DNA from: Akkermansia muciniphila
GTDB taxonomy: Bacteria; Verrucomicrobiota; Verrucomicrobiia; Limisphaerales; BJHT01
Reading direction: 5' to 3'
DNA length: 52,767 nucleotides
Assembly (NCBI GenBank): GCA_945861535.1
Contig: CAMAUZ010000058.1
Location: 1-52,767, forward strand
Each line of letters opens with the position of its first letter. The stretch's first letter is position 1. Position numbers and translations under genes: made by a program. Below the pieces are notes generated by a model, which saw only the letters and a list, made by a program, of their open reading frames with translations, was not told the DNA's origin and did no database searches. Of the stretch, positions 18,255 to 29,353 are shown piece by piece.

Positions 18255-19313
18255 ATGTTTATCACCGGACTGGCCACGGCGGTTCCGCCCCAGCGCTTCA
18301 CGCAGGCGGAATGTTGGGCGGCGTTGCAACGCGCCCCGCAGTTTTTGCAGCTCAACGCGCGCGCCCACGCGGTGCTGCGGAAAGTGTTGTCGGGCGAAAA
18401 TGGCACCGCCACCCGCCATCTCGCGGTCGCCGAGCTGATGGAAGCCTTCGCGCTCACGCCCGACGCGCTGCACGCCCGCTTCGCGCACAACGCGCCCGCA
18501 CTGGCCACGCAGGCCGCCGAACGCGCCCTCGCCACCGCCCGCCTCCCGCCCGCGCAGGTGGACGCCGTCCTCATCAGCACCTGCACCGGCTACCTGTGTC
18601 CCGGCCTCACCAGCTACGTGAGCGAGCGGCTCGGACTGCGCCCCGACGTGCTCGCGCTCGATCTGGTCGGGCAGGGCTGCGGTGCGGCGCTGCCGAACTG
18701 GCGCACCGCCGAAGCGCTGCTCGCCGCGGGCCGCGCGCAGCACGTCCTGTCCGTGTGCGTCGAGATTTGCAGCGCGGCCTTCTACCTCGACAACGACCCC
18801 GGCGTGCTCATCAGCGCCTGTTTGTTTGGCGATGGCGCGGGCGCGGCGGTGTTGTCGGCCCAACCCGCCGCTCATGCGCGACGAGTGGAATGGAAAGCGG
18901 CGGGAACGGTGCTCAGCCCGGCGGAGCGTGATCTCCTGCGCTTCGAGCAGCGCGACGGGATGTTGCGGAACCTTCTCACGCGCGAGGTCCCCGCGCTCGC
19001 CGCCAAGCATGTGGAAAATCTGCTCGCCGAAATGCTCCATCGCCACGGACTGAAACGCGCCGACGTGACCGGCTGGATGCTGCACGCCGGTGGACGCGAA
19101 GTGCTGGCCGCCCTGCAAAAACGGCTCGGTCTCGACGAATCCGAGCTGCGCCGGAGCGCCGCCGTGTTGCGCGAATTCGGCAATGTCAGCAGCCCGTTCG
19201 TGCTCTTCGTTCTCGAACGGGCGCTCGCAGAAAACGCGCCGGGCGGCTGGTGGTGGCTCTCCTCGTTTGGCGCGGGCTTCAGTTGTCACGGTGCGCTCTT
19301 GCAGGTGGAGTGA
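18255..19313 (+). CDS. Type III polyketide synthase (chalcone/stilbene synthase family)
   Basis: 352 residues, the family length. The Cys-His-Asn triad is complete: Cys142 in DLVGQGCGAALPNW, His277 in WMLHAGG and Asn310 in EFGNVSSPF. An additional GDGAGAAVL block lies near 192-200. The homodimeric enzyme condenses an acyl-CoA starter with several malonyl-CoA units and cyclises the chain to a pyrone, resorcinol or resorcylic acid. It is followed after 3 bases by a methyltransferase and then by a flavoprotein oxidoreductase, on the same strand. The same enzyme classes make methylated alkylresorcinols and alkylquinones in Streptomyces (srsA-srsB-srsC). A phenolic lipid product is therefore a reasonable inference, but starter and chain length cannot be read by eye. 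Confidence 0.93.
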   Translation: MFITGLATAVPPQRFTQAECWAALQRAPQFLQLNARAHAVLRKVLSGENGTATRHLAVAELMEAFALTPDALHARFAHNAPALATQAAERALATARLPPAQVDAVLISTCTGYLCPGLTSYVSERLGLRPDVLALDLVGQGCGAALPNWRTAEALLAAGRAQHVLSVCVEICSAAFYLDNDPGVLISACLFGDGAGAAVLSAQPAAHARRVEWKAAGTVLSPAERDLLRFEQRDGMLRNLLTREVPALAAKHVENLLAEMLHRHGLKRADVTGWMLHAGGREVLAALQKRLGLDESELRRSAAVLREFGNVSSPFVLFVLERALAENAPGGWWWLSSFGAGFSCHGALLQVE

Positions 19314-19316
19314 ATC

Positions 19317-20021
19317 ATGCGCCGCGTAGTCGAACCGGAAATTCTGGATGACCTGCCGCCCGCCGATCCGCGGGCGGTCGGATCGCGCGGGGATTTGCGC
19401 CGGTTGAATTTCATCATGGGCCACGAGGGCATTCTGACCCGCGCATTTCGCCGCCACTGCGAGACCGCTGCCTTTCGCGCGCGTCCCCTGCGGCTGGTCG
19501 AACTGGGCGCGGGGGACGGCACCTTGCTGCTGCGACTGGCGCGGCGCTGGGCGGCGCTGGGCGTCACCGCCGAGGTCACGCTGCTCGACCGGCAGGACGT
19601 GGTCGCCGTGGCGACGCGCCGCGCGTTCGCGGCGCTCCAGTGGTCCGTCGAGAGTGTGGCGACCGACGTGTTCGCGTGGCTGGAGCAAACCTCGCCGCAT
19701 GCGGATGTCATGCTCGCCAATCTGTTTCTGCACCACTTCCCGGACCCATCGCTGGCCGAATTGCTGCGTCTGGCGGCGGCGCGGACGAACCTCTTCCTGG
19801 CGTGCGAACCGCGCCGGTCGCCGCTCGCGCTTGTGGGTTCGCACCTGCTCGGGCTGCTGGGTTGCAACCGCGTGACGCGGCACGATGCCGTGGTCAGCGT
19901 GCGCGCCGGTTTTGCCGGGCGTGAACTCTCCGCGCTCTGGCCTGCGAACGTCGCGTGGGAAACGAGCGAACGGGCGGCGGGCCTTTTCAGCCACTGCTTC
20001 GTCGCGCAACGCCATGCGTAA
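19317..20021 (+). CDS. Class I SAM-dependent methyltransferase of the type III PKS cluster
   Basis: 234 residues. SAM-binding motif I, LVELGAGDGTLLLRLA, is at about residues 60-75. An acidic DRQDVV loop and the post-motif ANLFLHHFPD follow, giving a Rossmann-fold methyltransferase. It starts 3 bases after the polyketide synthase stop, so the two are surely co-transcribed. It probably O- or C-methylates the synthase product; the acceptor is unknown. It is soluble, unlike the membrane-bound isoprenylcysteine-type methyltransferases that accompany some type III synthases. Confidence 0.85.
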   Translation: MRRVVEPEILDDLPPADPRAVGSRGDLRRLNFIMGHEGILTRAFRRHCETAAFRARPLRLVELGAGDGTLLLRLARRWAALGVTAEVTLLDRQDVVAVATRRAFAALQWSVESVATDVFAWLEQTSPHADVMLANLFLHHFPDPSLAELLRLAAARTNLFLACEPRRSPLALVGSHLLGLLGCNRVTRHDAVVSVRAGFAGRELSALWPANVAWETSERAAGLFSHCFVAQRHA

Positions 20022-20411
20022 ATGGAAACGCCGAAGCCGGAATCGGGCGAAGCCCGACGCCTTGGGGAGCGCACGCCGCTGGCGTGCTGTTTTCGGCGGG
20101 CCGCCGAAAACTTCGTTCCCTCAACTTCCTCTCGCGGCGGAGAAGCCAGACTGGGGAACGACGGTTTGGGCGGGCCGCCCAAACCGGCACGCGGGCCGCG
20201 TGCGCTCCCCTTACGGTTTCGGCGTCCGGGCAAAAATGGAACGCCGCGTGCCGCCCGGAGCGCGGCCTTCAGGCCGCTTCAGCGTGCGGCTGGCGGAAGC
20301 GCTCTGGTCATCACGACCGCCCCCCTCGCAGCGCACGGTGAAGGGGCGTGAACGCCGCGCTCCGAACGCCGCCGCTATCCCGAGCGCCACGTTCGTTCAC
20401 TTTTCCACCGC
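20022..20411. other. Spacer inside the polyketide cluster, repeat-rich
   Basis: A gap of 390 bases between the methyltransferase and oxidoreductase genes. It holds one copy of a three-hairpin repeat (20061-20210) and an inverted copy of the GCGGCCTGAAGGCCGC motif (20258-20284). No gene is credible. The hairpins could attenuate read-through between the two genes. Confidence 0.5.
20061..20210. repeat. Three-hairpin repeat, family B, copy 1
   Basis: Three perfect palindromes lie in a row: TTTTCGGCGG-G-CCGCCGAAAA (20090-20110), TTTGGGCGG-G-CCGCCCAAA (20165-20183) and GCACGCGG-G-CCGCGTGC (20187-20203). GGGAGCGCACGCC and GCGTGCGCTCCCC strings bound the unit as inverted ends. A second copy lies at 21866-22020. 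Both sit between genes at the polyketide cluster. Confidence 0.8.
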
Positions 20412-21452
20412 ATGATTTCGCCCCATCCGATCACCATCGTCGGCGGCGGACTGGCCGGCCTGACGCTCGGCATCGGGCTGCGGCAACGCGGCGTGCCGGT
20501 GACGGTCTGGGAGGCGGGCCGTTATCCGCGTCACCGCGTCTGCGGCGAATTCATCAGCGGCGGCGGGCAAGGCTCGCTCGCGCGGCTCGGCCTGTTGGGC
20601 GGACTGCGCGCCGCGGGCGCGGGTGCCGCGACGAGCGCGGCATTCTACGCCGGGCAGGCGCTGGTCGCGGCGCGTCCGCTGCCGGCCGCCGCGCTGTGCA
20701 TTTCGCGTTTGGTTTTGGATGACTGGCTCGCGCGGGAATTCCAGCGGCTCGGCGGCGAGCTGCGTTCCGGCGCGCGCTGGGCCGGTGAATTCGGTGCCGG
20801 CATGGTGCGCGCGAGCGGTCGGCGCGCGGAGCCGGTGGCGGACGGCTGGCGGTTGTTCGGCCTGAAGGTCCACGCGCGCGGCGTCGTGCTGGACGCCGAT
20901 CTCGAGCTGCACTTTGTGCCCGCGGGCTATGTGGGTTTGTGCCGGCTGCCCGGCGGCGAAGTGAACATCTGCGGCCTGTTTCGCAGCACCGCGCCGGTGC
21001 CCGACCTGGCGCTGCGCTGGCGCGACTGGCTGGGCGGTCCGGCCGATTCCGTGCTGCACGCGCGGCTGGCGGGCGCGCACTTCGTGGATGACTCCTTCTG
21101 CACGGTGGCCGGGCTGGGGCTGCGTCCGCAGCGCGCGGCGCAGCGGCACGAATGCAGTCTCGGCGATGCGCTGACGATGATCCCGCCCGTGACCGGCAAT
21201 GGCATGTCGATGGCCTTTGAATCCGCGGAGCTAGCCATCGGGCCGCTCGCGAAATTCAGCCGCGGCGAACTGCCGTGGGCGCAGGCGCAGGCGGCGATTG
21301 CCCGGGATTGCGACCGCGCTTTCAGCACGCGCCTGCGCTGGGCGGCGTGGCTGCAACGGGCGTTGTTCCAGCCGTCGGCGCGTGCGGCGCTGCTGTTCGT
21401 GGTTGCGCGTTCGGAGCGGTTGTGGCGCGGGATTTTCGCACGGACACGGTGA
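20412..21452 (+). CDS. FAD-dependent oxidoreductase of the type III PKS cluster
   Basis: 346 residues. The N-terminal dinucleotide-binding motif TIVGGGLAGLTLGIGL (residues 8-23) is followed by the acidic VWEAG end of the second strand and a YPRHRVCGEFISGGG block, as in the geranylgeranyl reductase/halogenase-like flavoproteins. A second flavin-contact region, GDALTMIPPVTGNGMSMAFESAELA, lies near residue 250. The likely job is hydroxylation or oxidation of the methylated polyketide to a quinone, as the flavoprotein SrsC does in Streptomyces; this is inference by context. It is separated from the methyltransferase gene by 390 bases of repeat-rich spacer. Confidence 0.85.
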   Translation: MISPHPITIVGGGLAGLTLGIGLRQRGVPVTVWEAGRYPRHRVCGEFISGGGQGSLARLGLLGGLRAAGAGAATSAAFYAGQALVAARPLPAAALCISRLVLDDWLAREFQRLGGELRSGARWAGEFGAGMVRASGRRAEPVADGWRLFGLKVHARGVVLDADLELHFVPAGYVGLCRLPGGEVNICGLFRSTAPVPDLALRWRDWLGGPADSVLHARLAGAHFVDDSFCTVAGLGLRPQRAAQRHECSLGDALTMIPPVTGNGMSMAFESAELAIGPLAKFSRGELPWAQAQAAIARDCDRAFSTRLRWAAWLQRALFQPSARAALLFVVARSERLWRGIFARTR

Positions 21453-21584: not shown

Positions 21585-21764
21585 ATGAAAAAAATCTTGG
21601 CCTTGTCCTGCGCTCTCGCGCTTCTGAGCACCACCGGTTGTCTGGTTTCCGGCGGCGGTGGCGGGCACGGAAAAGGGCACGGACACGGGGTGAAGCACCA
21701 CAATTCGTCAGCGGTCATCGTGCCGGCCATCGTCGTGCCGTCCGTTCGGGTGCGGGTGGATTGA
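21585..21764 (+). CDS. Tiny histidine-rich lipoprotein
   Basis: 59 residues. The signal peptide MKKILALSCALALLSTTGC carries a lipobox (STTGC, Cys19). A Gly-rich stretch follows with the histidine cluster HGKGHGHGVKHH (28-39), then a beta-branched tail rich in Val, Ile and Pro (SAVIVPAIVVPSVRVRV). The pattern suits a metal-binding or surface-anchored peptide, but no family is recognised. There is no clear ribosome-binding site at the usual distance. It lies 132 bases after the oxidoreductase gene on the same strand and could be the last gene of that transcript. Confidence 0.6.
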   Translation: MKKILALSCALALLSTTGCLVSGGGGGHGKGHGHGVKHHNSSAVIVPAIVVPSVRVRVD

Positions 21765-22211
21765 TCCATAATCCGGCGGCGGGGGAACCCGCCCTCGGCT
21801 GGAGCTGGATGTGCCGACGCGGCCAGTTCCGGGCGCGGAGAACCGCACCCGAGGGCGGGTGCGCTCCCCGGCTGGGGAGCGCGCGCCGCTGGCGTGCGGT
21901 TTTCGGCGGCCCGCCGAAAACTCGTGCCACCAACTTTTTCCGGCGGCGGTGAGGGCAGACCGGGGAACGAGGGTTTGAGCGGGCCGCCCAAACCGGCACG
22001 CGGGCCGCGTGCGCTCCCCGGTTTTCCGCGAGGGCGCGGAAAAATACACCCGCGGGCGAGTGCGCTCCCCGGCGGGCTGCGGGGCGCGCAGGGCGGTTGG
22101 GAAGACTTGGTGCGCTCGCGGGTCACGCGCGCTGCGGAACGGCGCGCCCCGCCGGAAGCTTCTGGAAACGCAGCCGCCTCCGACTGCCGACGGCGGCAGA
22201 GGCCGGCGCCG
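21765..22211. other. Repeat-filled spacer between convergent genes
   Basis: A stretch of 447 bases between the tiny lipoprotein gene and the convergent ompH gene. It contains the second three-hairpin repeat (21866-22020) and further partial units (TTTTCCGCGAGGGCGCGGAAAA at 22022-22043). No gene is credible; a bidirectional terminator role is plausible. Confidence 0.5.
21866..22020. repeat. Three-hairpin repeat, family B, copy 2
   Basis: The same order of palindromes as at 20061-20210: TTTTCGGCGGCCCGCCGAAAA (21900-21920), a slightly degenerate TTTGAGCGG-G-CCGCCCAAA, and GCACGCGGGCCGCGTGC, bounded by GGGAGCGCGCGCC and GCGTGCGCTCCCC. The connecting sequence differs between copies more than the hairpins do, which points to selection on or copying of the stems. 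Confidence 0.8.
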
Positions 22212-24642: not shown

Positions 24643-25385
24643 AGAACTCTCCGTTTGCGTTCTGTAACGAGCGGCAGCCTACCTCTTTATCTGGGTTCCC
24701 GCAAATTTCAGGCGCGGCGGAATTGGGGCCGCTGCCGCAGCGCCTGCCCCGCCCGAGCGCCGTCGGAGCGCGGCTCGCGGAGCGCGGCTGCGTCCCGCTC
24801 GGCGCGGGATCAGCCGCAGCACGTCCGCGCGGAGAGGCGGCCCAAATTCATCCCCCACGTCCGGCGATGCGCAGCCGCTGCGGCTGGTCGCGGCGACACA
24901 GCCGCGCTTCGTCAGAGCGCCGCCGGAGCGCGGCTGTGTCCCGCGCCGAGCGGGATCAGCCGCAGCGCGTCCGCACGGAGAGACGGCTCGAATTCAGCCC
25001 AACGCGTCCGACGGTGCGGAGCCGCTGCGGCTGGTCGCGGCGACACAGCCGCGCTCCGTTCACGCGCTCGCGGAGCGCGGCTGCGTCCCGCTCGGCGCGG
25101 GATCAGCCGCCGCACGTCCGCGCGGAGAGGCGGCCCAAATTCATCCCACATGTCCGGCGATGCGCAGCCGCTGCGGCTGGTCGCGGCGACACAGCCGCGC
25201 TCCGGGCGAGCGGTGGCAGAACACGGCGGCGAGCTTTACGCGCGTGCGTGAGGCGGGCAGGCTCCCCGCCATTCATCATGAAACTGATCCAGCACGACCG
25301 CACGGGACTGATGCCGGCCCGCATCCGCCGAACCCGGCACGTTTCATTTTTCCAACTCCCGTCAGGCCATGACGGCGCACGCTAA
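24643..25385. other. Divergent spacer with the first repeat array
   Basis: 743 bases between the divergently transcribed aldehyde dehydrogenase and madL genes. The 3-copy array takes up 24779-25203. The flanks at 24643-24778 and 25204-25385 must hold both promoters; I cannot identify boxes in them. Reading frames through the array are repeat translations, not genes. Confidence 0.6.
24779..25203. repeat. Tandem array of a 146-bp palindromic repeat, 3 copies
   Basis: The anchor GATCAGCCGC recurs at 24808, 24954 and 25101 (periods 146 and 147). A full unit opens with GGAGCGCGGCTGTGTC (or a one-base variant) and closes with its exact reverse complement GACACAGCCGCGCTCC. Inside is a second inverted pair (CAGCCGCAGCG ... 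CGCTGCGGCTG) and a small hairpin, CCCGC-GCCGA-GCGGG. Each unit could fold as one long arm with a side hairpin. The same unit forms a 4-copy array at 28762-29330. Confidence 0.9.
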
Positions 25386-28753: not shown

Positions 28754-29353
28754 ACTGCGGCGGAGCGCGGCTGTGTCCCGCTCGGCGCGGGATCAGCCGC
28801 AGCGCGTCCGCACGGAGAGGCGGCTTGAGTTCATCCCACGCGTCCGGCGATGCGCAGCCGCTGCGGCTGGTCGCTGCGACACAGCCGCGCTCCGTCCGAG
28901 CGCCGCCGGAGCGCGGCTGTGTCCCGCGCCGAGCGGGATCAGCCGCAGCGCGTCCCCACCGAGAGGCGGCTCGATTTCATCCTACGCGTCGGGCGATGCG
29001 CAGCCGCTGGGGCTGGTCGCTGCGACACAGCCGCGGCCCGTCCGAACGCCGCCGGAGCGCGGCTGTGTTCCGCGCCGGGCGGGATCGGCCGCAGCGCGTC
29101 CCCACGGAGAGGCGGCTCGATTTCATCCTACGCGTCCGGCGATGCGCAGCCGCTGCGGCTGGTCGCCGCGACACAGCCGCGCTCCGTCCGAACGCCGCCG
29201 GAGCGCGGCTTTGTCCCGCGCCGAGCGGGATCAGCCGCAGCACTTCCGCACGGAGAGGCAGCTCGAATTCATCCCACGCGTCCGGCGTGCGCAGCCGCTG
29301 CGGCTGGTCGCTGCGACACAGCCGCGCTCCGGGGCCGGCAGCAGCAAGCGCCT
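28754..29353. other. Convergent spacer with the second repeat array
   Basis: 600 bases between the convergent ligase and lactonase genes. The array fills 28762-29330 nearly completely, leaving 23 bases before the lactonase stop codon. It could serve as a transcription terminator for both genes. Confidence 0.6.
28762..29330. repeat. Tandem array of the 146-bp palindromic repeat, 4 copies
   Basis: The GATC anchor recurs at 28791, 28937, 29083 and 29229, exactly 146 bases apart each time. Units match those at 24779-25203, with the same 16-base inverted ends and internal hairpins. Substitutions are scattered and often occur in loops or as single arm changes. No unit contains a conserved reading frame. 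Confidence 0.92.

Follow-up and report, generated by a model that had tools for sequence, protein, structure and literature searches.

The combination of a type III polyketide synthase (PKS), a methyltransferase and a flavoprotein is the logic of srsABC in Streptomyces. In cyanobacteria, the hierridin genes hidABC encode a methyltransferase, an FAD-dependent oxidoreductase and a single type III PKS, for which hidA>B>C as well as hidC>A>B have been published as gene orders (PMC8086630). A methyltransferase-FAD-type III PKS (MT-FAD-PKS) operon, which accounts for 58 of 96 PKS genes, is also known from Planctomycetota, where it is linked to alkylresorcinols; its heterologous expression gave pentadecyl- and heptadecylresorcinols (C15/C17), as well as a probable C-methylated form (PMC10896814). 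Unnamed T3PKS clusters with low similarity to known clusters have been reported from Opitutales (PMC12193912), and our literature search found no product-level description of the cluster in Verrucomicrobiota.

In this study, we focus on three intact open reading frames on one strand of a DNA stretch of 52,767 nucleotides (hereafter the window), encoding a type III PKS, a methyltransferase and an FAD-dependent protein, in that order. This order equals hidC>hidA>hidB of cyanobacteria (PMC8086630), a likeness of described families and order between hosts of different phyla. An MT-FAD-PKS operon is carried by a plasmid of Paludisphaera borealis, and the best NCBIfam models (PRK06202, GG-red-SF and DpgA) are the same for its proteins and for those of the window. 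Against this one planctomycete sequence, identity is 30% for the PKS, 29% for the methyltransferase and 24% for the FAD protein; the gene order is permuted, and the one planctomycete PKS compared falls into a separate clade, whereas both operons are compact and the FAD proteins of both contain a GYVGLxR motif. The hidABC operon and its planctomycete version are a better match than srsABC. The resemblance to srsABC proposed in an earlier note holds for the PKS/methyltransferase/flavoprotein logic, but srsABC is not the nearest cluster, and its SrsB is a membrane methyltransferase of the ICMT type, whereas the enzyme of the window is a soluble class I methyltransferase (Methyltransf_25/PRK06202-like). 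The same note regarded the soluble methyltransferase and the geranylgeranyl-reductase-like flavoprotein as departures from described clusters, which had to be abandoned, since both are usual in the hidABC and planctomycete operons (PMC8086630, PMC10896814).

The locus is best read as an uncharacterised, deeply branching form of the MT-FAD-PKS type represented by hidABC and the planctomycete operon, and it rather probably serves to make a modified phenolic lipid of the alkylresorcinol type. Cyanobacteria and planctomycetes had already provided examples of this operon type; what differs here is the sequence, with a separate PKS clade. Being compact and spread widely through phyla whose lipid chemistry is little known, the operon is a small, expressible target, and its expression would reveal whether phenolic lipids are made in Verrucomicrobiota.

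Gene layout and conservation

The PKS gene occupies positions 18255..19313 (352 aa) and is followed after 3 bases by the gene for a class I SAM-dependent, PRK06202-like methyltransferase at 19317..20021 (234 aa), and after a further 390 bases by that for an FAD-dependent oxidoreductase at 20412..21452 (346 aa), all on the plus strand; the arrangement described in the earlier note, with a complete Cys-His-Asn type III PKS at its head, is confirmed at these positions. Compared with a relative of the same genus (L005), dN/dS is ~0.12 for the PKS, ~0.18 for the methyltransferase and ~0.18 for the FAD protein. All three genes are under purifying selection, and because of these values the three open reading frames are regarded as real genes.

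A scan of GTDB contigs yielded 68 relatives, with 66 usable loci. The order PKS-MT-FAD on one strand was found in 44 of the 66, MT-FAD-PKS in 7, and FAD-PKS, with no methyltransferase found at the sensitivity used, in 9; the others comprise one locus with a different flavoprotein upstream, one ending with its contig after the methyltransferase gene, and four with the PKS alone. Several of the Chthoniobacter-type loci are among those in which the methyltransferase escaped detection at this sensitivity. A separate survey covered 388 Verrucomicrobiota genomes, of which 49 encode the flavoprotein at a threshold of E<=1e-30; all 49 also encode the PKS. Co-occurrence of the genes in relatives, a check named beforehand, is conserved: the PKS and FAD genes are adjacent, as trio or FAD-PKS pair, in 60/66 loci, and lie close together on one contig in 46/49 genomes.

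The operon branch is widespread in Verrucomicrobiota and occurs in some Pseudomonadota. Organism labels of several MAGs are doubtful, and the Pseudomonadota cases are confirmed by isolates and one complete plasmid (Uliginosibacterium, Caballeronia sordidicola and Caballeronia sp. SBC2). In the loci of Pseudomonadota and of Nitrospirota-labelled MAGs, the slot of the FAD protein holds a different, longer flavoprotein subfamily. On the SBC2 plasmid (L093, 6001-10708), and likewise at L044, genes for an acyl carrier protein and a ketosynthase lie directly after PKS-MT-FAD; at L093, the annotation of the PKS is only a KAS III C-terminal-domain protein.

The references for the PKS were Paludisphaera, DpgA, Tsukamurella, Marinovum, PKS18, 2PS and an Ectocarpus PKS. 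In the PKS tree, loci with the PKS gene first derive from Pedosphaerales-type Verrucomicrobiota, Pseudomonadota and Nitrospirota-labelled MAGs, and those with the PKS gene last from Opitutales and Chthoniobacterales. Since the two fall into distinct, strongly supported groups (99/95 and 98/100), one change of order suffices within the clade. The window clade as a whole, with a support of 97/77 that lies under the starred level, is set apart from Paludisphaera, other verrucomicrobial PKSs, PKS18, 2PS and DpgA. The change in gene order and the flavoprotein swap make the operon a useful case of operon evolution. Outside this clade, verrucomicrobial type III PKSs also lie beside methyltransferase and FAD genes (L091, 5088-7984, and L090, 2694-5607), in the orders PKS-MT-FAD and PKS-FAD-MT, which suggests that the trio has been assembled or rearranged more than once.

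Properties of the three enzymes

The PKS scores above the cut-offs of the Pfam models Chal_sti_synt_N/C and FAE1_CUT1_RppA, and its C142, H277 and N310 align with C164/H303/N336 of CHS and are invariant in 26 homologues. Structure comparison of the AlphaFold2 model (pLDDT 90.8) places it in the thiolase/CHS fold. Among solved structures, the methyl-branched alkylpyrone synthase PKS11 comes closest (Foldseek TM 0.92; VIA Z 46.8 over 346 residues, with 27% identity in the structural alignment), with other type III PKSs scoring no more than 1-2 Z units lower. The type III fold is thus common to the window enzyme and to PKS11 and PKS18 of Mycobacterium tuberculosis, although we know of no MT-FAD operon associated with either of the latter. 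The window PKS is the sole CHS-domain gene found in its genome; a second PKS match (C15, 26% identity) was rejected as a type III PKS, as the CHS domain model gives no match to it.

Tunnel residues were compared at positions of PKS18 and CHS which, from the literature on both enzymes, we take to be the relevant ones. T144/A148/C205 of PKS18 correspond to T111/C115/C172, all three of which are small, and T197 of CHS corresponds to the small A175, G256 to F230 and F265 to N239. DpgA, which uses malonyl-CoA as its starter, has two small residues and a Val at the three PKS18 positions; because its residues are so similar, the comparison at these positions cannot discriminate. An acyl tunnel is therefore allowed, not proven: the acyl-starter tunnel envisaged in the earlier note gains from the small residues and the PKS11-like fold, but these are not decisive in view of DpgA.

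The methyltransferase matches Pfam Methyltransf_25, a soluble class I enzyme, and its top NCBIfam model is PRK06202, with a score under the cut-off. Its distances track those of the PKS closely (r=0.94 over 52 loci, against a shuffled maximum of 0.34); for the FAD protein, the correlation with the PKS is r=0.50 (shuffled maximum 0.21).

The FAD protein belongs to the PHBH-fold/GG-reductase superfamily and matches Pfam FAD_binding_3. Its best NCBIfam hit, the GG-reductase subfamily, is weak and below the cut-off, with 44.1 bits against 158.8 for TIGR02032 (geranylgeranyl reductase). The AlphaFold2 model (pLDDT 90.4) has as its nearest folds the phenol/pyrrole halogenases PltA/Bmp2, squalene epoxidase and 3-hydroxybenzoate 6-hydroxylase, at Z about 28-33; as enzymes whose substrates are phenols or lipids, these speak for the phenolic-lipid reading. 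Neither the halogenase motif WxWxIP nor the GG-reductase motif Y/FxWxFP occurs in any of the 68 flavoprotein matches from the loci (0/68 for each). GxGxxG and GD are kept in the FAD protein, in which the canonical DG..S..R motif was looked for and is absent. Given the two missing and the two retained motifs, ring hydroxylase would be the likeliest role of this protein.

Proposed pathway and alternative readings

In the pathway that we propose, Cys142 of the PKS would take up a fatty acyl starter from CoA or ACP; after extension by about three malonyl units, the chain would be cyclised to an alkylresorcinol, or possibly an alkylpyrone. Methylation of a ring carbon or hydroxyl by the methyltransferase and ring hydroxylation by the FAD protein would then lead to a methylated lipid of the alkyl-hydroquinol or quinone kind. 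The genes, their catalytic residues, the predicted folds, the conserved co-occurrence and the selection are observed; we infer the starter, the ring type, the order of steps, the product and its location in the membrane. In Caballeronia and Rhodoferax, the loci have added ACP and ketosynthase genes, and therefore a supply of the starter as acyl-ACP is suggested. Transfer of the product from the planctomycete operon to the window is uncertain, because the two PKSs are just 30% identical and belong to different clades. The lack of a canonical DG..S..R motif in the FAD protein, the swap of the FAD subfamily in Pseudomonadota and the undetected methyltransferase of several Chthoniobacter-type loci argue against the reading as a phenolic-lipid operon. 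It is improbable that the product of this PKS clade, which Verrucomicrobiota share with several Pseudomonadota/Nitrospirota MAGs, is instead a quinone-like lipid of another class, such as a stress lipid or a redox carrier of the membrane, with an exchangeable flavoprotein step and with a dedicated ACP/ketosynthase pair supplying the starter in Burkholderiales.

Since the type of cyclisation cannot be read from sequence and the closest fold is that of an alkylpyrone synthase, the PKS may instead make long-chain alkylpyrones, as PKS18 and PKS11 do, which the other two enzymes would decorate. We consider this unlikely, though foremost among the alternatives, as the PKSs that have methyltransferase and FAD partners of these families in planctomycetes and cyanobacteria make resorcinols (PMC10896814, PMC8086630). 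Were the starter short or malonyl, as in DpgA-, PhlD- or RppA-like enzymes, the PKS would make a small polyhydroxybenzene, whose later methylation and oxidation would yield a diffusible quinone. The similar tunnel residues of DpgA speak for this, as does the best NCBIfam model of the PKS, which is DpgA at 159.7 bits; this score, however, is far under the equivalog cut-off of 425 bits (an annotated DpgA reaches 621.9), and the planctomycete PKS of the alkylresorcinol-type operon likewise matches DpgA best. In addition, no dpgB/C-like gene was seen beside the cluster in an open-reading-frame reading of the neighbourhood, and the Caballeronia version is adjoined by ACP and ketosynthase; we consider a short starter improbable. 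A further, improbable alternative, compatible with the alkylresorcinol-type reading of the PKS, is that the flavoprotein is a halogenase or a double-bond reductase rather than a hydroxylase. Its best fold matches are halogenases, its weak profile match is to a reductase, and hierridin C is a chlorinated alkylresorcinol of unknown mechanism (PMC8086630), but the motifs of both enzyme types are missing in 68/68 flavoprotein matches.

Repeats and neighbouring genes

The gap between the methyltransferase and FAD genes contains two inverted repeats without assigned strand, a dispersed imperfect palindrome of ~150 bp (20055..20215) and a second repeat (20256..20364), neither of which is part of the pathway. 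The hairpins, which the earlier note had counted as a cluster feature, are real, but the palindrome is a repeat dispersed over the genome. At least 40 copies are present in its own genome (40 of 141 candidates scored), with another at 21873-22019 in the window, and its core motif is absent from 10/10 more distant relatives scanned, which rules out a regulatory element specific to the cluster. A same-genus relative has the palindrome in the same gap and an unrelated insert between the PKS and methyltransferase genes, whereas in the next-closest relatives the operon genes almost touch. The palindrome in the gap is thus an insertion, not a functional part, and possibly represents a REP/MITE-like family.

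A small, His/Gly-rich predicted lipoprotein encoded downstream (~21586-21765) was rejected as a fourth gene, as it has a convincing match in the same-genus L005 only. Thiamine-phosphate synthase, NUDIX and histidine-kinase genes lie near only some of the loci and were judged to be unrelated to the operon. Further downstream in the window, a GC-rich unit of 146 bp is repeated in tandem at two places, with 3.0 copies at 24773-25204 and 3.9 copies at 28761-29331; the two arrays match one another at about 86-92% identity.
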